Assembly: GCA_947589675.1 (NCBI GenBank)
Contig: CANQCI010000016.1
Location: forward strand, 1 to 39,791
From: an uncultured Bacilli bacterium
GTDB lineage: Bacteria; Bacillota_I; Bacilli_A; RF39; UBA660
Direction of reading: 5' to 3'
DNA length: 39,791 bases
Below the pieces are notes generated by a model, which saw nothing but the letters and a program-made list of their open reading frames with translations, was not told where the DNA came from and searched no databases. Made by a program: the position numbers and the translations under genes. Shown in pieces: positions 4,613 to 13,467 of the stretch (the first letter of the stretch is position 1; every line of letters starts with the position of its first letter).

Positions 4613-4897
4613 TTGAAAAAAACAAAAAAAGAAAAAAAGCGATTATTTATTTTAAGTTGTTTAATCTTGTTCTTAGTGGGTTCCCTAGTAACATCTGTTT
4701 CTAAGGATTGGACATCAATATTAAATAATAATCAGGAGATTAAAAAATTAACCACTGAATATGAAGAATTACTAACAGAAGAAGAACAATTAAAAAGTGA
4801 AGTAACAAAACTTCAAGACCCGGATTATGTAGCCCGTTATGCGAAGGAAAAATATATGTATTCAGGGGAAGGAGAAACCATTATTCGGATGGATTAA
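4613..4897 (+). CDS. divIC: Cell division protein DivIC/FtsB family
   Basis: From a TTG start at 4613 the protein has 94 residues. GGTGGTGG about 7 nt upstream is the ribosome-binding site; an alternative TTG at 4598 would read through it. It has a short basic cytoplasmic N-terminus, one membrane segment (about residues 9-28), a coiled coil ([19 protein letters not shown]) and the conserved end [20 protein letters not shown]. DivIC/FtsB acts at the septum with FtsL and DivIB. The yabP-yabQ-divIC order matches B. subtilis. Its stop codon overlaps that of clpP on the opposite strand. Confidence 0.9.
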
Positions 4898-5478
4898 AAT
4901 TCGTCTTCGCCAATTATCTCGTCAATTAAGCCATATTTTAAGGCATCACTTGCGGAAAGAAAATTATCCCGTTCCGTGTCTTTAGTGATTTGTTTTAAGG
5001 TTTTGTTAGTTTTATGAGCAAGAATAGTATTTAGTTTCGTTTTAAGTTTTAAAATTCTTTCGGCAGCAATTTTGATGTCCGTTGCTTGTCCTTGGGCACC
5101 GCCAAGAGGTTGATGAATCATAATTTCCGCATTGGGTAAGGCTGACCTTTTTCCGGGGGTTCCACTGGCTAATAAAAAGGCGGCCATACTAGCTGATAAA
5201 CCTAAAGCAATTGTGCGGACATCACTTTTAATGTAGTTAATTGTATCATAAATACTCATGCCGGAGGTAATGCTTCCCCCAGGACTATTAATATATAAAT
5301 ATATATCTTCATGATTGATATTATCTAAATATAAAAGTTCACTAATAACAATATTCGCCGTTTGGTCGTTGATTTCGCCAACCAAAAAAACTATCCGGTC
5401 TTTTAAAAGTCTTGAATATAAATCATAAGCATATTCTTTATTACTACTTTTTTCAATAACAGTTGGAACAATGTTCAT
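4894..5478 (-). CDS. clpP: ATP-dependent Clp protease proteolytic subunit
   Basis: The protein has 194 residues, the normal length. The catalytic triad is intact: Ser97 in GLSASMAAF, His122 in [16 protein letters not shown] and Asp171 in [10 protein letters not shown]. ClpP forms the tetradecameric protease chamber that works with ClpX/ClpC ATPases. It is the only clear minus-strand gene in the window and lies convergent to divIC and divergent from the nucleoside kinase gene. The ribosome-binding site is AGGTG. No CtsR heptad repeat (GGTCAAA type) is visible upstream, but a palindrome with an extra half-site lies at 5535-5561. Confidence 0.97.
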
Positions 5479-5633: not shown

Positions 5634-7280
5634 ATGGCTTCGATAAAGGTAGAATTTTCGGGGAAAGTACATGAATATTCCCAAAGTATGACTTTATATG
5701 AAATTAGCCAAGATTGTGAAGATATTCCTAATATTGTGGGAGCTGAGATTAATAATGAAATCTATTCATTAGATAAAGTAATCGAAGAAGATACGAAAAT
5801 AAATTTTATTAATTATAATAATATAGTAGGTAATAAAATTTATAAATCAGGGTTAAAGTTTTTATTTGAAGTTGCTTTGGAGGAAACTTATCCTAATTTA
5901 GAAGTATCTTATGAGCATAGTGTGCCACGGGGCATGTTAGCAATAATTCATGGAGCGAAAATATTAACTAGTGATGATATTGCCAAAATTAAAAATCAAA
6001 TGACGAATATCATTATGAAGAATGAAAAGATTCAAAAATTAAATGTTAATCCTAAGGAAGCCATTAAGTACTATCTTAGTACAAAAGAGTATGAAAAGGC
6101 GGATAATATCCAAAATATAAATGATAAGATAGTTTCTTTATATCGTTTGCATCATAAATTAAATTATTTTTATTCGCTAATGCCGTATAATACGGGGTGT
6201 TTAAGTAAATTTGAATTAGTTTATTTAGGAAATAATAAAATTATTTTTTTGTTTCCTAGTAGTCGAACTAATGGCGAAGTACCAGAGTATGTTCATTATG
6301 CAAAGATATTAGATTCGTTTTATCAAGGCAAAGAATGGTTAGGTAAATTAAAAATTCCTTATGTTACGGATTTAAATAAAACGATTGAAAGTGGAGCAAT
6401 AAAAGATTTCATTCGCTCGAATGAGTTAATGTTTAATTTAGATATTGCCAATGTTGCCAAGGAATTTACAGAAAACAAAAATATTAAATTTGTTTTAATC
6501 GCTGGACCATCTTCCTCGGGGAAAACAACAACTATGGCTAAATTAAGTTCCTATTTAAGTGCTTATGGCTTAGATCCTATTAAAATATCCTTAGATGATT
6601 ACTTTGTTAATCGGGAAGACACTCCAAAGGATGTATATGGAAGATATGATTTTGAGAGTCTAAATGCTCTAGATTTAAAACAATTTAATGATGATTTACA
6701 GCGACTTTTAAATTATGAAGAAGTAAATTTACCAACTTATAATTTTTTAACTGGTCGAAGAGAAAATATTGACAAGAAAGTAAAATTAAAAGAAAATAGT
6801 ATTTTTTTAATTGAAGGATTACATGCGTTAAATGAAGAATTAACGAAAGATATACCTAGCATGTATAAGTATAAAATTTATTTAAGTCCATTTATTCCGT
6901 TAAATATTGACCGGCATAATTATATATCAACAATTGATTTAAGGTTACTACGAAGAATGGTTCGTGATAATCGCACTCGTGGCTTTGATGTTGCAAGAAC
7001 GATTGGAATATGGCAAAGTGTGCGGGATGGGGAAGAAAAAAATATTTTTCCTTATATCCATCAAGCTGATGTTATTATCAATACAGCGATGGCTTACGAG
7101 GTTGGTGTATTAAAAGTGTATGTTGAACCGCTTTTATATGATGTAAAAGTGGATTCAGAATATTATGAAGAAGCCCGAAGATTGATTGATTTTTTAAAAC
7201 AATTTTTTCCGATTCCGGGAGAATATGTTAATGATGAATCAATTTTAAGAGAGTTTATAGGAGGAAAGTATAATGATTAA
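5634..7280 (+). CDS. TGS-domain nucleoside (uridine-type) kinase
   Basis: The protein has 548 residues. The N-terminal ~65 residues look like a TGS domain (GKVHEYSQSMTLYEIS...), followed by a region related to the editing domain of threonyl-tRNA synthetase. The C-terminal half is a uridine kinase/phosphoribulokinase domain with a Walker A loop at residues 291-298 (GPSSSGKT), the SLDDYFVNREDTP segment and the DLRLLRRMVRD...R basic cluster. This combination is the 'nucleoside kinase' family of Firmicutes; the precise substrate is not known from sequence. The ATG at 5634 follows GGGGTGG. It overlaps gap by 8 bp, so both are expressed together. Confidence 0.88.
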   Translation: MASIKVEFSGKVHEYSQSMTLYEISQDCEDIPNIVGAEINNEIYSLDKVIEEDTKINFINYNNIVGNKIYKSGLKFLFEVALEETYPNLEVSYEHSVPRGMLAIIHGAKILTSDDIAKIKNQMTNIIMKNEKIQKLNVNPKEAIKYYLSTKEYEKADNIQNINDKIVSLYRLHHKLNYFYSLMPYNTGCLSKFELVYLGNNKIIFLFPSSRTNGEVPEYVHYAKILDSFYQGKEWLGKLKIPYVTDLNKTIESGAIKDFIRSNELMFNLDIANVAKEFTENKNIKFVLIAGPSSSGKTTTMAKLSSYLSAYGLDPIKISLDDYFVNREDTPKDVYGRYDFESLNALDLKQFNDDLQRLLNYEEVNLPTYNFLTGRRENIDKKVKLKENSIFLIEGLHALNEELTKDIPSMYKYKIYLSPFIPLNIDRHNYISTIDLRLLRRMVRDNRTRGFDVARTIGIWQSVRDGEEKNIFPYIHQADVIINTAMAYEVGVLKVYVEPLLYDVKVDSEYYEEARRLIDFLKQFFPIPGEYVNDESILREFIGGKYND

Positions 7281-8277
7281 AGTGGCTATTAATGGTTTTG
7301 GGAGAATTGGAAGATTAGCGTTTCGGCAAATGCTTACGCAATCAGGTTTTGATGTGGTGGCAATAAACGATTTATCAAGTGCGGAAGATTTAGCATATTT
7401 AGTGAAATATGATACCGTTCATGGATCATTCCATGAAGATGAAATTACCTTTGAGGGTGATGAAATTGTTGTAGCAAATCAAAAAAGAATTAAAGTTTTA
7501 GCGGAAAAAGAACCGGATAAATTACCATGGAAAGAATTGGGGATTGATTTAGTGTTAGAATGTACGGGTAAATTTACGAGTAGTGAAGATGCTCAAAAAC
7601 ATATTGATGCCGGAGCTAAAAAAGTTTTAATTTCGGCACCAGGCAAAGGATTTATGAAAACAATTGTTTACAATGTTAATGATGAGGAAATAACTGATAA
7701 TGATAAAATAGTTTCCGCGGCAAGTTGTACCACCAATTGTTTAGCCCCAGTTTTAAAAGTTATTAATGATAATTTTGGGATAAAAAAAGGATTTATGACT
7801 ACTGTGCATGCTTACACTAATGACCAAGCTACCTTAGATATCGCTCATAAAAAGGGGATTAAAGCTAGACGGGGAAGAGCTTGTGCTCAAAATATTGTTC
7901 CCTCATCAACTGGAGCGGCAAAAGCTATTGGGTTAGTAATTCCTGATTTAAAAGGGAAAATGGATGGGGGAGCATTTAGGGTACCAGTAGCTGATGGCTC
8001 AATGATTGATGTAACCTTAGAACTTAAGAAAAATACAACAGTTGAAGAAATTAATAAGTCTTTAGAAAATAACCAAAATGAAACCTTAAAGTTTACGATG
8101 GATCCTGTTGTATCAAGTGATATACTCGGAAAAAAATATGGAGCTTTAGTCGATGGGTTATTAACTAATATTGTTGAAAGTGAAGAAACGCAATTAGTTA
8201 AAATAGTTGCTTGGTATGATAATGAATATGGGTATACAGCACAAATGTTAAGAACTGCCCAAAAAATGTTTAATTAA
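7273..8277 (+). CDS. gap: Glyceraldehyde-3-phosphate dehydrogenase
   Basis: The protein has 334 residues, normal length. It oxidises glyceraldehyde-3-phosphate to 1,3-bisphosphoglycerate with NAD. The NAD-binding NGFGRIGR is at the N-terminus, with Asp33 in AINDLSS suggesting NAD preference. The catalytic Cys152 is in SAASCTTNCLAPV and His179 in TTVHAYTNDQ. The start overlaps the end of the nucleoside kinase gene, with GGAGG just before it. pgk and tpiA follow. A small hairpin with a T run separates gap from pgk. Confidence 0.97.
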   Translation: MIKVAINGFGRIGRLAFRQMLTQSGFDVVAINDLSSAEDLAYLVKYDTVHGSFHEDEITFEGDEIVVANQKRIKVLAEKEPDKLPWKELGIDLVLECTGKFTSSEDAQKHIDAGAKKVLISAPGKGFMKTIVYNVNDEEITDNDKIVSAASCTTNCLAPVLKVINDNFGIKKGFMTTVHAYTNDQATLDIAHKKGIKARRGRACAQNIVPSSTGAAKAIGLVIPDLKGKMDGGAFRVPVADGSMIDVTLELKKNTTVEEINKSLENNQNETLKFTMDPVVSSDILGKKYGALVDGLLTNIVESEETQLVKIVAWYDNEYGYTAQMLRTAQKMFN

Positions 8278-8282
8278 AAAAT

Positions 8283-8308
8283 AGTTGATGTAATTTCAAC
8301 TTTTTTTT
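8283..8308 (+). terminator. Hairpin with T run between gap and pgk
   Basis: AGTTGA (8283-8288), loop TGTAATT, TCAACT (8296-8301), continuing into an eight-T run. The 6-bp AT-rich stem should be leaky, so it may lower rather than stop transcription into pgk. A TATGATAAT stretch at 8311-8319 could restart transcription. Confidence 0.55.
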
Positions 8309-8332
8309 GATATGATAATAATGGAGGATAGT

Positions 8333-9460
8333 ATGAAAAAAATAAATGAAATAGATATAAGTAATAAAAAAGTAATTATTAGAGTTGATTATAATGTTCC
8401 TTTTAAAGAAGATAAAATCACTGATAATTCCAAAATTGAAAAAAGCTTAGAAACTTTAAAATATTTATTAGATAAAAATTGTCGAATTGTGATTTTAAGT
8501 CATTTAGGACGAGTTAAAAGTGAAGAAGATAAAAAGAAATATTCCCTAAAAATAGCGGCTAAAGAATTAGCTGATTTAATTAATAAACCGGTAAAGTTTT
8601 TAGACCAATGTTATGGAGAAAAAGTTAAACAAATTGTTGAAGAAAGTTCTTTAGGGGAAATAATAATGTTAGAAAATACCCGAATTATGGACTTTCCTGA
8701 TAAATTAGAAAGTAAAAATAATGAAACTTTAGCTAAGTTTTGGGCTTCTTTAGGAGAAGTTTATGTAAATGATGCCTTTGGTTCATGCCATCGGGCTCAT
8801 GCATCAACTGCGGGAATTGCCAAGTACATTCCTAGCTGTGTAGGCTTTTTAGTGGCAAAAGAATTAGAAAATTTAGATTTATTAGTAAAAAATCCAGCTC
8901 ATCCTTTTACCGTATTTATGGGAGGAGCGAAAGTTGATGATAAGATTAAGATTATTTCTTCGTTGTTACCAAAATGTGACCATTTGTTATTAGGTGGGGG
9001 GATTGCTAATTCCTTTTTAAAAGCCAAAGGAGCGGATTTAGGATCTAGTTTAGCTACCAGTGATGAAGAAATTTTAAATGAATGTCGAAAATTAATGACT
9101 GATTATAAAGCCAAAATAGTTTTGCCAGTTGATTTTGCCTTAGATGATGGTTGTATTTATGATGTCGGTATCAAAACTATCGATATTTATAAAAAATATA
9201 TTAATGATAGTTCAATAATTTTTGTCAATGGTACTTGTGGTAAATTCGAGGATGAAAGATTTACCGAAGGAACTGAGGCATTATTCAAAACTTTAAAGGA
9301 AAGTGGCAAGACTGTCATTGTCGGTGGTGGTGATACCGTTTCCGCGGTTAGAAAATTTGGTTATGAAAAAGCTTTCAAATTTTTATCAAGTGGGGGAGGA
9401 GCTACATTAGAATATATTGCTAATGGAAAATTAGATGCTCTAGAATGGTTAAATAAATAA
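8333..9460 (+). CDS. pgk: Phosphoglycerate kinase
   Basis: The protein has 375 residues, slightly shorter than the usual ~390-400. It transfers the phosphate of 1,3-bisphosphoglycerate to ADP. Family signatures are RVDYNVPF near the N-terminus, VILSHLGR, ENTRIMD, FVNDAFG-type VYVNDAFGSCHRAHAST, GGAKVDDK and the C-terminal VIVGGGDTVSAVRKFG. The ATG at 8333 has GGAGG at 8323-8327; an in-frame ATG at 8312 lies upstream of that site and is unlikely. The stop codon shares a base with the tpiA start. Confidence 0.96.
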   Translation: MKKINEIDISNKKVIIRVDYNVPFKEDKITDNSKIEKSLETLKYLLDKNCRIVILSHLGRVKSEEDKKKYSLKIAAKELADLINKPVKFLDQCYGEKVKQIVEESSLGEIIMLENTRIMDFPDKLESKNNETLAKFWASLGEVYVNDAFGSCHRAHASTAGIAKYIPSCVGFLVAKELENLDLLVKNPAHPFTVFMGGAKVDDKIKIISSLLPKCDHLLLGGGIANSFLKAKGADLGSSLATSDEEILNECRKLMTDYKAKIVLPVDFALDDGCIYDVGIKTIDIYKKYINDSSIIFVNGTCGKFEDERFTEGTEALFKTLKESGKTVIVGGGDTVSAVRKFGYEKAFKFLSSGGGATLEYIANGKLDALEWLNK

Positions 9461-10173
9461 TGAAAATTCTCGCATGTAATTTCAAAAATAAATTAACTTT
9501 ACCCGAAATAAATAATTATATAAAAGAATTACCAGATTTAAATATCCCCAGCTTAGAATTAATTTTAATTCCCTCACTACCATATTTATCAGAATTTATG
9601 GAGCTTCCTTATTCGTTAGGGACTCAAGATATTAGTTCTTTCATGGATAAAACCATTACGGGGGAAATTACGGGTGAACAATTAAAGTCACTTAATGTAA
9701 GCTATGTAATGGTCGGTCACTCCGAAAGACGTTTATATAAAAATGAAATAAATATTGATTTTATCAATAAAATTAATCATGCGAAAGAAAATGATTTAAA
9801 AGTAATTTATTGTATCGGGGAATCCTTGGAAGCCAAAGAAAATGGTGATACTTATATGGTTTTAGAAAAACAAATAAGTGAAGTATTAAATAATGTTAAT
9901 ATTAAAGATATTATTATTGCCTATGAACCAGTCTGGGCTATTGGCAGTGGTAAAACGCCAACAAAAGAAGAAATAAGTGAAACGGTTGAGTTTATTAAAG
10001 ACATTATTGAAGAAAAGTATGATACGAGAATAAAAGTTCTCTATGGTGGTAGCATCAATGTGGATAATATTGAAGTTATCAACAAAATTAAAAATTTAGA
10101 CGGCTTCTTAGTGGGTGGGGCTTGCCTAGATAGCAATAATGTGAAAGCGATGTTATTAAAATTAATGTTATAG
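9460..10173 (+). CDS. tpiA: Triosephosphate isomerase
   Basis: The protein has 237 residues (usual ~250). The catalytic residues are present: Lys9 in CNFKNK (a variant of the usual NWKMN), His87 in VGHSERR and Glu156 in AYEPVWAIGSG. The phosphate-binding LYGGSI and VGGACL are also present. It interconverts dihydroxyacetone phosphate and glyceraldehyde-3-phosphate. There is no separate ribosome-binding site of note: the start overlaps the pgk stop (TAATG), pointing to translational coupling. Confidence 0.95.
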   Translation: MKILACNFKNKLTLPEINNYIKELPDLNIPSLELILIPSLPYLSEFMELPYSLGTQDISSFMDKTITGEITGEQLKSLNVSYVMVGHSERRLYKNEINIDFINKINHAKENDLKVIYCIGESLEAKENGDTYMVLEKQISEVLNNVNIKDIIIAYEPVWAIGSGKTPTKEEISETVEFIKDIIEEKYDTRIKVLYGGSINVDNIEVINKIKNLDGFLVGGACLDSNNVKAMLLKLML

Positions 10174-10181
10174 GTGGAAAA

Positions 10182-10967
10182 ATGAATTTAACTAAGAAAC
10201 AATTAACAATAATAGTTATCTTTTTAAGTATTATTGTGGTTTTATTATTTATTTATATTCTTTTAACTAAATCTAATGCGGATATTTTAGGATTAGATGT
10301 TGCAAACTATAACTTAGAAGTGGAAAGAACATATAATTGTAATAATGAACCGGTTGAGTATTTAAAAATAAATGATTATACCGTATATACCTATTGTTTA
10401 GATAATATTATGGTTAAAAATGGCAAGAATAAGGAAGAGCTAAGAGGATATTATTTAAATAATCCCAATATAATTGAAAATATGATTAATAATTTTGAAG
10501 TTCATGATAAATATAAAGATGGTGGTTCTATTATGTATGACTCACCTGAAAAGTTAGTTAATCAAAAAATAAAGATTTTAAAATGTAATACTATTGATGG
10601 TAATCATGATGTTTATATTGGTTCAAGTACAATGGAATATGAAGATAATTTTTGTAAAAAGGTTAATGCTGATGCGGGAAAAAGTTATATAGCTACTTAT
10701 CAAATATATAATATCTTAGATAGTAATGATGGGGAGTATTTTTATATAACAATTAGAGCTTTTCAAGATGAAGAAGTTGATGTGGTAAAAATAAAGAAAA
10801 GTATTAATCCGGATATCGCAATTAATAAAAATTATGAATTTACTTTTAATATATTGGAAAAGACTGATTTAAGTACAATAGATTCCATATTTACGACCGC
10901 AGAATTAGTTAGTGTGGTGGAAACTGAGGCTGTTGGACTTGAACAAGCTAATGGGATTGTGGAATAA
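10182..10967 (+). CDS. Hypothetical membrane-anchored protein
   Basis: The protein has 261 residues and is not recognised. A basic start is followed by a single hydrophobic segment (about residues 8-29, LTIIVIFLSIIVVLLFIYILL), with no lipobox cysteine, so it is probably an N-terminally anchored extracytoplasmic protein. The outer part is Asn/Asp/Tyr-rich and has several cysteines (for example YNCNNEP, TYCLDN, LKCNT, NFCKKV), which may form disulfides. It starts 8 nt after tpiA behind AGGTGG and ends at a strong terminator, so it is the last gene of the gap-pgk-tpiA unit and the direct upstream neighbour of spo0A. Confidence 0.65.
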   Translation: MNLTKKQLTIIVIFLSIIVVLLFIYILLTKSNADILGLDVANYNLEVERTYNCNNEPVEYLKINDYTVYTYCLDNIMVKNGKNKEELRGYYLNNPNIIENMINNFEVHDKYKDGGSIMYDSPEKLVNQKIKILKCNTIDGNHDVYIGSSTMEYEDNFCKKVNADAGKSYIATYQIYNILDSNDGEYFYITIRAFQDEEVDVVKIKKSINPDIAINKNYEFTFNILEKTDLSTIDSIFTTAELVSVVETEAVGLEQANGIVE

Positions 10968-10968
10968 G

Positions 10969-11000
10969 AAACTAAAAATGGTGCTAATTTTTAGTTTTTT
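10969..11000 (+). terminator. Terminator of the glycolytic unit
   Basis: AAACTAAAAAT (from 10969) pairs with ATTTTTAGTTT across a GGTGCTA loop, about 11 bp with no mismatch, and runs into a T tract ending at 11000. Confidence 0.85.
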
Positions 11001-11019
11001 CATGGGGAAAAACGAGGTT

Positions 11020-11066
11020 TTCGACATTCTTCGACAAATGTTGACGTCTATTGACAAAATATGACA
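11020..11066 (+). promoter_or_regulatory. Five phased Spo0A-box-like elements upstream of spo0A
   Basis: Heptamers start at 11020, 11030, 11040, 11050 and 11060: TTCGACA, TTCGACA, GTTGACG, ATTGACA, TATGACA. The GAC core recurs at exactly 10-bp steps in all five. The first two are perfect matches to the reverse complement of the established 0A box TGTCGAA; the others match 4, 5 and 5 of 7 positions. Tandem 0A boxes with 10-bp spacing are how Spo0A dimers are known to bind. The array ends about 10 bp before the -35 box of the spo0A promoter, a position that fits autoactivation (inference). Confidence 0.75.
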
Positions 11067-11076
11067 TTCTTTTTTG

Positions 11077-11105
11077 TAGACTTTTGTAAAGTAATGAGTT
11101 ATAAT
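11077..11105 (+). promoter_or_regulatory. Sigma-A-type promoter of spo0A
   Basis: TAGACT (11077-11082), a 17-bp spacer and TATAAT (11100-11105). Transcription would start near 11112, giving a ~33-nt leader. No clear sigma-H promoter could be read. Confidence 0.65.
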
Positions 11106-11144
11106 TAGTACAGATGCATTAAGAAAAGGAAGGAAAGAAATTAC

Positions 11145-11909
11145 ATGGAAAAAACTATTAGAGTTGTTGTGATTGATGACAATGAAGTAGTAACAGGCAG
11201 TGTAAAGAAGTACTTTTGTGGAAATGCAAACATTAACGTAGTGGGGGTTTTTAATAGTGGAAAGGCTGGGTTTGATTATTTAGTTAAACATAATCGTGAG
11301 TATGACCTAGTTATTCTTGATATTTTATTACCGGAAATTGATGGTTTAAGACTAATGGAAGAATTAAACAAACGGGGAATTGCGAAAAAAGTTATTATAA
11401 TTTCTAGTTATAAGGATGATTATTCCATTAAAAAAGCTCAAGCTTTAGGTGCAAATTATTACATGCTTAAACCATTTGATTTAAAAACTTTAGAAGAACG
11501 AATTAAAGATATATCTGAAAGCGATGAAAAGGCACCTATCGAGCATCGGGAAAGTGTCGAAGTTGAAGTTAGTACTATTTTGCATAATTTAGGTATTCCC
11601 TCACATATAAGAGGATATCAATATATTAGGGAAGGTATCTTACTAATTTATGAAAGTAATAAAATAGTAACACTTGTAACCAAAGAGGTATATCCCGAAA
11701 TTGCGGACAAGTATAATACGACATCATCACGGGTTGAAAGAGCAATACGGCATGCCATTGAAATAAGTTGTGTGCGTGGGGACTTAAAATTAATGGAAAA
11801 ACTATTTGGAAATAGTATTGATTTTGAGAAAGCTAAACCAACTAATTCGGAATTTTTAACGACTATAGCTGATCGCATGAAAATGAATAAAAGAGAATTG
11901 ATTGCCTAA
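11145..11909 (+). CDS. spo0A: Sporulation master regulator Spo0A
   Basis: The protein has 254 residues (B. subtilis 267). The receiver domain (1-~125) has the acidic pair Asp11/Asp12, the phosphoacceptor Asp59 in LVILDILLPEIDG, Ser87 and Lys109 in LKPF. The effector domain carries the strongly conserved recognition helix TTSSRVERAIRHAIEIS and ends NSEFLTTIADRMKMNKREL. This is a diagnostic Spo0A C-terminus and the protein should be functional. Phosphorylated Spo0A starts sporulation by binding 0A boxes. The gene has its own promoter and is preceded by a phased array of 0A-like boxes. In B. subtilis spo0A follows spoIVB; here it sits between glycolytic genes. Confidence 0.97.
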   Translation: MEKTIRVVVIDDNEVVTGSVKKYFCGNANINVVGVFNSGKAGFDYLVKHNREYDLVILDILLPEIDGLRLMEELNKRGIAKKVIIISSYKDDYSIKKAQALGANYYMLKPFDLKTLEERIKDISESDEKAPIEHRESVEVEVSTILHNLGIPSHIRGYQYIREGILLIYESNKIVTLVTKEVYPEIADKYNTTSSRVERAIRHAIEISCVRGDLKLMEKLFGNSIDFEKAKPTNSEFLTTIADRMKMNKRELIA

Positions 11910-11917
11910 TTAGTTTA

Positions 11918-11946
11918 TTGTCTTTTTTGAGGGGCTATGATATATT
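11918..11946 (+). promoter_or_regulatory. Promoter of gpmI
   Basis: TTGTCT (11918-11923), a 17-bp spacer and TATATT (11941-11946) with a TG extension at 11938-11939. The start codon is 21 nt beyond the -10 box, so the leader is very short. Confidence 0.65.
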
Positions 11947-11967
11947 GTTAATACAAGGTGATGATAA

Positions 11968-13467
11968 ATGAAAAAGGTTTTAACAATTATTTTTGATGGC
12001 TTTGGGATGCGAGAAGAAGAAAAAGGGAATGCGGTTAAAGCGGCGAATATGGTTCATTTTCAAGAATTTTGGAATAGCTATCCGCATGCTCTTTTACAAG
12101 CTAGTGAAGAGGCGGTTGGACTAAGTAAAGGTCAACCTGGTAATAGTGAAGTTGGTCATCAAACTATTGGGGCGGGTTATTTACTTCGCCAAAATGAGAT
12201 AGTTGTTAATGATTTTTTAGCTAATCCGGATTTACAAAATCCCGCAGTTGAAAAACTTTTAACTTTAAAGGATAAAACTATCCATTTGATGGGACTATGT
12301 AGTGATGGAAATATTCATGCTGGAGTTGATGACTTTATTTCGATGTATCAATTTTTAGTCAAAGAAGGATTTAAAGACATCGTATTTCATTTAATAACCG
12401 ATGGACGAGATACTCCCGTGGATGCTGCATATAAATACATCAAAATGATTGAAGATGAAATAAGCAAAACAGGCATTGGGGTTATTTCGACGTTATGTGG
12501 TCGTTATTATGCCATGGATCGTGATGAAAATTGGGATCGAACCGAACTTTATTATAATCTAGTGGTAAATGGTGTTGGCATAAAATCTTTAAATGCAAAG
12601 TTAACCTTGGAAAAATGCTATGCTGAGGGAATAACTGATGAATATATTAGACCCATAATTTTATCGAAAAAATTAATTAATAATGGCGATGTTTTAATCT
12701 GGATGAATTATCGGGCTGATCGGGCTAAGCAAATTTTAAATTCCATGGTAAATTCATTATCATTTACGGAATTTCCGGTTCAGGATTTAAGTGCGATAAC
12801 GTATTTTAGTTTCTTTAATGTTGATAAAAATATAAAAACAATTAATTTCTTAGAACCAGATCATGCCACTCAGCCTTTAGGGATTTATTTAAGTGAGTTA
12901 AATTTTACTCAAGCTCGGGTTGCAGAAAGTGAAAAATTTCCGCATGTTACTTACTTTTTTGATGGTGGCTATGATGGAAAAATTGAAAAGTGTGATAAAT
13001 TTCATATTAAATCACCCAATGTAGCTACTTATGATTTAAAACCGGAAATGAGTGCCATTGAAGTTACGAAAAAAGTTGTAGAATGTATGGAAAATGATTA
13101 TGATTTCATTTTAGTTAATTATGCTAATCCTGATATGGTCGGACATACGGGCAAAATGGAAGCGGCAACGAAAGCTTGTATGGCTGTTGATGTTTGCTTA
13201 AATGTTTTGCTCGAAAAAGCGGAAGAAAATTTTTATAAAATTATTTTATTAGCTGACCATGGAAATTGTGATACAATGTATAATCCTGATGGAAGTCCAT
13301 GCACTACACATACAACAGCTTTAGTTCCGTTTGTTATTGGTGATAAAAAAGTAAAATTAAAAGCAACTGGTTCTTTAACTAATGTTGCTCCCACCATTTT
13401 AGATTATATGGATATTGCAGTGCCAAAAGCAATGGAAAATACCCAGTCGTTAATTATCAAAGAATGA
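11968..13467 (+). CDS. gpmI: 2,3-bisphosphoglycerate-independent phosphoglycerate mutase
   Basis: The protein has 499 residues (family ~510). It interconverts 3- and 2-phosphoglycerate using two metal ions. Metal ligand Asp10 is in TIIFDGFG, and the nucleophile Ser60 in GQPGNSEVGH. Further motifs are HLITDGRDTPVDAA, CGRYYAMDRD.NWDR, NYRADRAKQI, VNYANPDMVGHTG and LLADHGNCDTM. AAGGTG precedes the ATG. Unlike the common gap-pgk-tpiA-gpmI-eno order, gpmI is separated from tpiA by an unknown gene and spo0A, and enolase is not in the window. Confidence 0.97.
   Translation: MKKVLTIIFDGFGMREEEKGNAVKAANMVHFQEFWNSYPHALLQASEEAVGLSKGQPGNSEVGHQTIGAGYLLRQNEIVVNDFLANPDLQNPAVEKLLTLKDKTIHLMGLCSDGNIHAGVDDFISMYQFLVKEGFKDIVFHLITDGRDTPVDAAYKYIKMIEDEISKTGIGVISTLCGRYYAMDRDENWDRTELYYNLVVNGVGIKSLNAKLTLEKCYAEGITDEYIRPIILSKKLINNGDVLIWMNYRADRAKQILNSMVNSLSFTEFPVQDLSAITYFSFFNVDKNIKTINFLEPDHATQPLGIYLSELNFTQARVAESEKFPHVTYFFDGGYDGKIEKCDKFHIKSPNVATYDLKPEMSAIEVTKKVVECMENDYDFILVNYANPDMVGHTGKMEAATKACMAVDVCLNVLLEKAEENFYKIILLADHGNCDTMYNPDGSPCTTHTTALVPFVIGDKKVKLKATGSLTNVAPTILDYMDIAVPKAMENTQSLIIKE

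Follow-up and report, generated by a model that had tools for sequence, protein, structure and literature searches.

Phase-locked tandem 0A boxes at the spo0A promoter of an uncultured RF39 lineage point to a multi-protein Spo0A complex in self-regulation

Tandem 0A boxes and autoregulation by Spo0A are already known. In Bacillus subtilis, tandem weak and strong boxes reportedly lie near −35 at abrB and at spoIIG, a Spo0A-activated sigma-A promoter. A tandem head-to-tail Spo0A pair, at the 10-bp type of spacing described below, is seen in the structure 1LQ1 (the Spo0A DNA-binding domain on DNA). The B. subtilis spo0A gene itself has sigma-A and sigma-H promoters (Pv/Ps) flanking three boxes, 0A1–0A3, and a further box, 0A4; Spo0A acts at several of its own gene's boxes, with cooperativity between occupied boxes, and 0A1–0A3 together are mainly repressive, single boxes being of either sign (PMC12090719). 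In C. difficile, a consensus 0A box is located about 75 bp before the spo0A start codon and gave the tightest binding of the Spo0A DNA-binding domain, with multiple shifted species (PMC3485338).

The locus described here lies in a 39,791-nucleotide stretch (the window) of an uncultured Bacilli bacterium of the order RF39. The gene at 11145–11909 encodes Spo0A: its 254-aa product scores 242.5 bits against TIGR02875 (cut-off 200) and contains a PF00072 receiver and a PF08769 C-terminal domain. Its recognition region, NTTSSRVERAIRHAIE, is one residue apart from NTTASRVERAIRHAIE of the solved DNA-binding domains 1FC3/1LQ1. The features upstream of and including the gene are as follows, where block numbers refer to the alignment of 23 genus orthologs.

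11020..11026, + strand: 0A box 1, perfect TTCGACA, read directly; block −80, TTCGACA in 11/23 orthologs
11030..11036, + strand: 0A box 2, perfect TTCGACA, read directly; block −70, GAC in 22/23 orthologs
11040..11046, + strand: 0A-like box 3, weak GTTGACG; block −60, relatives mostly nTTTACA with an invariant C at position 6
11050..11056, + strand: 0A-like box 4, ATTGACA; block −50, ATTTACA in 11/23, ATTGACA in 7/23 and GTTGACA in 4/23
11060..11066, + strand: 0A-like box 5, promoter-proximal TATGACA; block −40, YTCGACA (TTCGACA/CTCGACA) in 16/23 relatives
11070..11090, + strand: conserved TTTTTGTAG..TTTTGTA stretch, the −35 region, in the 10-bp register of the array; blocks −30/−20, 16.3/10.8 bits in the genus
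11077..11082, + strand: −35 hexamer TAGACT (4/6), from a promoter scan
11100..11105, + strand: −10 hexamer TATAAT, present in 23/23 orthologs, its distance to the array being constant
11114..11119, + strand: start-region element ATGCA (GTGCA in relatives) just 3' of −10; 12.7 bits, block +10 to +19
11145..11909, + strand: spo0A coding sequence, 254 aa (TIGR02875, PF08769 and PF00072)

This arrangement resembles B. subtilis spo0A in offering Spo0A several boxes at its own gene, but differs from it in that a single sigma-A-like promoter here has four to five boxes in an unbroken 10-bp series 5' of −35. With spoIIG and abrB it shares weak and strong boxes in tandem near a sigma-A −35; unlike these, the array in the window is longer, ends one turn 5' of −35, and keeps an exact register across the whole family. 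C. difficile spo0A likewise has an upstream consensus box, whereas a five-box 10-bp series is not described in the available portion of PMC3485338. The recognition helix is nearly identical to that in 1LQ1, which, however, contains a pair and not a five-mer.

The GAC cores begin at 11023, 11033, 11043, 11053 and 11063, all on one strand, 37–77 bp 5' of the TATAAT at 11100. The sequence-only reading had put them exactly one helical turn apart; count, orientation and period stand, but the spacing is 10.0 bp and not 10.5 bp, so that the array drifts by about 0.2 turn from end to end. A spacing held strictly at 10.0 bp would be better accounted for by neighbouring protomers touching each other than by one helix face simply being preferred. 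That reading's two perfect distal copies, its three drifting nearer copies, and an array ending about 10 bp before a sigma-A-like promoter were all found: the boxes lie 10 bp 5' of a degenerate −35 in a TAGACT–17 bp–TATAAT promoter with a good −10, which is 39 bp from the start codon. A scan of 10930–11160, limited to the sigma-70 type, returned this single convincing promoter.

By chance, 0.00 sets of four phased GACs are expected across the 39.8 kb window. When 10968–11144 was dinucleotide-shuffled 20,000 times, the longest period-10 run of GACs was three (3 times), compared with the five observed, and with any period of 4–24 allowed it was four (once). In the window's own genome (1.46 Mb), matches to YGACAN5YGACAN5YGACA with at most one mismatch are confined to the array's three overlapping triplets and one further site (C40), and overlapping triplets occur in the spo0A array only.

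Conservation was assessed with a genus set of 25 sequences, including the window's own, reduced to 23 by removal of near-copies; the relatives' Spo0A proteins are 56–68% identical to that of the window. The relatives, in which absence of the array would have counted against the sequence-only reading, carry it in the same register. Within 30–100 bp 5' of −10, 75 of 77 GACs fall at 37, 47, 57, 67, 77 or 87 bp, and the proximal GAC is exactly 37 bp from −10 in 23/23 orthologs, while the linkers have diverged and the boxes persist. With a looser box definition, phased chains of four to five boxes are present in 20/23 members and in none of the shuffles; the array is unusually long for spo0A, as had been supposed, and is not special to the window's genome. 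The genus consensus has strong or variable distal boxes (−80/−70), weak middle boxes of the form nTTTACA (−60/−50), and a strong proximal box (−40). What is conserved, as read from this consensus, is a pattern with strong boxes at both ends and weak ones between them. The proposed gradient from strong distal to weak proximal boxes did not hold beyond the window's genome, whose weak proximal TATGACA is atypical: the proximal box is strong in 16/23 and the middle ones are weak.

Outside the genus, 99 non-redundant promoters of the family were collected. Exact TTCGACA is present in 75/99 (expected 0.9), and the chain mostly has one to five boxes. Phase was counted in the 58 of these promoters with a unique exact TATAAT as −10, and was 7 mod 10 in 44/58 and 8 in 8/58. 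In a Spo0A protein tree (unrooted, modest support), promoters with four to five boxes occur in the window's genus and several other deep lineages, and one large subclade is down to one or two boxes. In few-box lineages (L276, L278, L285, L290, L293 and other family loci; L049, L060, L062), an inverse half, TTCGACAAAACTTGTC, comes after the lone TTCGACA, giving a head-to-head arrangement rather than the tandem series. The phased array is absent from spo0A promoters of the clostridial outgroup and is thus not universal at spo0A.

Several observations bear on the identity of the bound protein. Box positions 1–7 are conserved in the genus and linker positions 8–10 much less so; summed over the five blocks, position 6 carries the most information (11.8 bits), followed by position 4 (8.3 bits). 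On the opposite strand these are G2 and C4 of TGTCGAA, of which Spo0A contacts G2, C4 and G5, mutation of any strongly lowering affinity (PMC3485338). As the most conserved base of the box is contacted by Spo0A, Spo0A is the predicted binder. Two boxes in the window are perfect and three degenerate, and the equivalent of G2 is retained in 5/5 and is near-invariant in the genus. That boxes 3–5 each deviate from the perfect 0A box counts against an operator for Spo0A. The B. subtilis 0A consensus on the other strand is TTTGTCRAA, and because the middle ATTGACA and GTTGACG fit this R-containing form, they are degenerate boxes and not non-boxes. Two weak inverse-orientation boxes are possibly present in the 11070–11090 stretch, a suggestion weakened by TCTAG at the equivalent place in distant relatives.

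The element just 3' of −10, near the expected transcription start, is strongly conserved in the genus and many family loci as (A)TGTGCAG or GCGTGCAGTAAA, more distant relatives having GCGTGCAGTAAA-like forms at the place of 11114–11119.

TTCGACA also recurs at other expected targets. In 13/13 loci with a placeable start, the putative spoIIAA-sigF operon has an exact box ahead of it, the distance hardly varying, and sigF of the window's own genome has one; 4/18 loci have one 5' of spoIIGA (spoIIGA-sigE operon). Exact boxes are found upstream of dnaA/oriC in 18/29 genus genomes (L246–L255, L258, L260, L262–L264, L268, L270, L272), mostly near DnaA boxes, and none is at dnaA in the window's own genome. 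Recurrence before sigF and often at oriC identifies TTCGACA as the Spo0A box of the genus. Spo0A binds at the replication origin in B. subtilis, and by analogy the dnaA-upstream boxes suggest control of replication initiation by Spo0A. A second phased-box promoter is present in the same genome as the window (G000:C19:19566-19600; L099/L185), with TTCGACA, a degenerate box, TATGACA and GCGACA, the last GAC being 38 bp from TATGAT. It precedes a gene whose secreted product is possibly LPXTG-like, together with a sortase-like gene, and is a candidate Spo0A target outside sporulation.

The spo0A gene resides in a glycolytic cluster (7273–13467; gap-pgk-tpiA-(orf)-spo0A-gpmI), flanked by tpiA plus one ORF on one side and by gpmI on the other; the usual neighbourhood is spoIVB-spo0A. 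The glycolytic setting is common to most genus relatives with enough flanking sequence and to many family members. One genome (G009) has two tandem full-length spo0A copies (C36:2288-3028 and 4615-5355), and two others (G156 and G161) have two copies each. No convincing spoIIE and no good sigma-H ortholog were found in the genus (best sigma-H score 114.5 bits, cut-off 294.8), and sigF- and sigG-like factors are present, in agreement with what has been published on the uncultured order RF39 (PMC10868615). The lack of a good sigma-H ortholog agrees with a sigma-A-type promoter. A dual promoter of the B. subtilis Pv/Ps type was rejected, as no sigma-H came near the cut-off and the sigma-70-type scan gave one convincing promoter.

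We consider the array to be a Spo0A operator for spo0A itself, bound by a head-to-tail oligomer and most likely activating, with a probability of about 0.82. This rests on the encoded Spo0A with its near-identical recognition helix, the phase-locked conservation, and the box at other expected targets. Spo0A~P would bind head to tail along the 10-bp repeats, nucleating at strong boxes and occupying weak ones through contacts with neighbours. The filament-like complex would lie 5' of −35, on a face of the helix that is constant with respect to RNA polymerase, and would most likely activate the sigma-A-type promoter with its degenerate −35, resulting in positive feedback and a steep response. Direct autoregulation of spo0A by Spo0A is well supported by the comparisons of sequence, as are tandem Spo0A boxes with 10-bp spacing at its own promoter, and the same comparisons point to a multi-protein complex in this regulation. 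Occupancy by Spo0A~P, cooperativity and the sign of the effect are inferences. Of the switch-like autoactivation first proposed, the autoregulation stands; activation and switch-like behavior are proposals, and the three spo0A boxes of B. subtilis together mainly repress.

Within autoregulation, activation is favored because all good boxes are 5' of a degenerate −35, the placement from which Spo0A-type regulators activate (PMC4168254); judged from this position it would be the likelier sign, and a repressive or mixed effect retains an appreciable minor share. In the repressive alternative, a Spo0A multimer at the promoter would hold spo0A low until another input raises transcription, that is, negative autoregulation or homeostasis. 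The three B. subtilis boxes jointly cut spo0A output (by 43.5% in a model of the wild type; PMC12090719), and the in-register TTTTGTA repeats reach into the −35/−10 spacer and could extend binding across the promoter. Every good box, however, is 5' of −35, where Spo0A usually activates, and strict locking of the face to −10 over 37–77 bp is better explained by contact with polymerase; repression is the less probable sign.

The remaining alternatives dispense with Spo0A. Tandem direct repeats near 10–11 bp are used by several regulators, and the binder is deduced here from sequence, so that a different response regulator or a repressor might occupy the array. This is improbable, given that the motif is an exact 0A box recurring at sigF and oriC, that its most conserved base is one contacted by Spo0A, and that the recognition helix is conserved. 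Still less credible is that the array arose by chance or through neutral duplication of a 10-bp unit in tandem, or that it consists of −35 hexamers overlapping one another, even though slippage can produce direct repeats and boxes 3 and 4 contain TTGACA-like hexamers. The hexamers have no matching −10 except in one weak pair, the run of five never arose in the 20,000 shuffles, and the array is kept in orthologs with diverged linkers and only 56–68% protein identity; chance or simple repeat and overlapping −35 hexamers were therefore both rejected.

A multicopy, dispersed module with the sequence TTGCAAGCNN-TTCGACANNNTTCGACA... is found in six genomes of the same genus (G004, G006, G012, G015, G016 and G027; 5–13 copies per genome; for example L175, L182, L170, L173 and L179) and carries phased 0A-like boxes, mostly outside a promoter position. 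The window's genome has no copies, and neither has the control. In G004, a repeat some 270 nt long lies in front of the module; it has a promoter-like start, a long terminal stem that closes it, and an RNA-fold z of −5.6. Even at E 1 it matches nothing in Rfam, and together with the module it may represent either a structured RNA or an element of the MITE type. An origin of the spo0A array from the dispersed TTCGACA arrays of some genus members was rejected, as genomes without them (for instance G000, G010, G014 and G019) keep the phased array.

New here are the length of the array, its strict register, and its conservation throughout a family whose lineages show no evident sigma-H promoter. 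No papers on long phased Spo0A arrays were found in the openly accessible literature, which does not prove their absence. The decision to sporulate has Spo0A autoregulation as its core feedback, the sign of which is debated even in B. subtilis. The family provides a natural series of one to five boxes in one register, in which the effects of box number and of affinity order on the response can be compared. Tentatively, Spo0A of this family might assemble into ordered oligomers of at least five molecules, with box number (one to five) shifting by whole turns while the polymerase face is held, in replacement of the dual sigma-A/sigma-H promoter; if so, evolution could tune how steep the sporulation decision is through the length of the array. 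The findings also bear on sequence-based prediction of Spo0A targets in reduced-genome, not yet culturable Bacilli.
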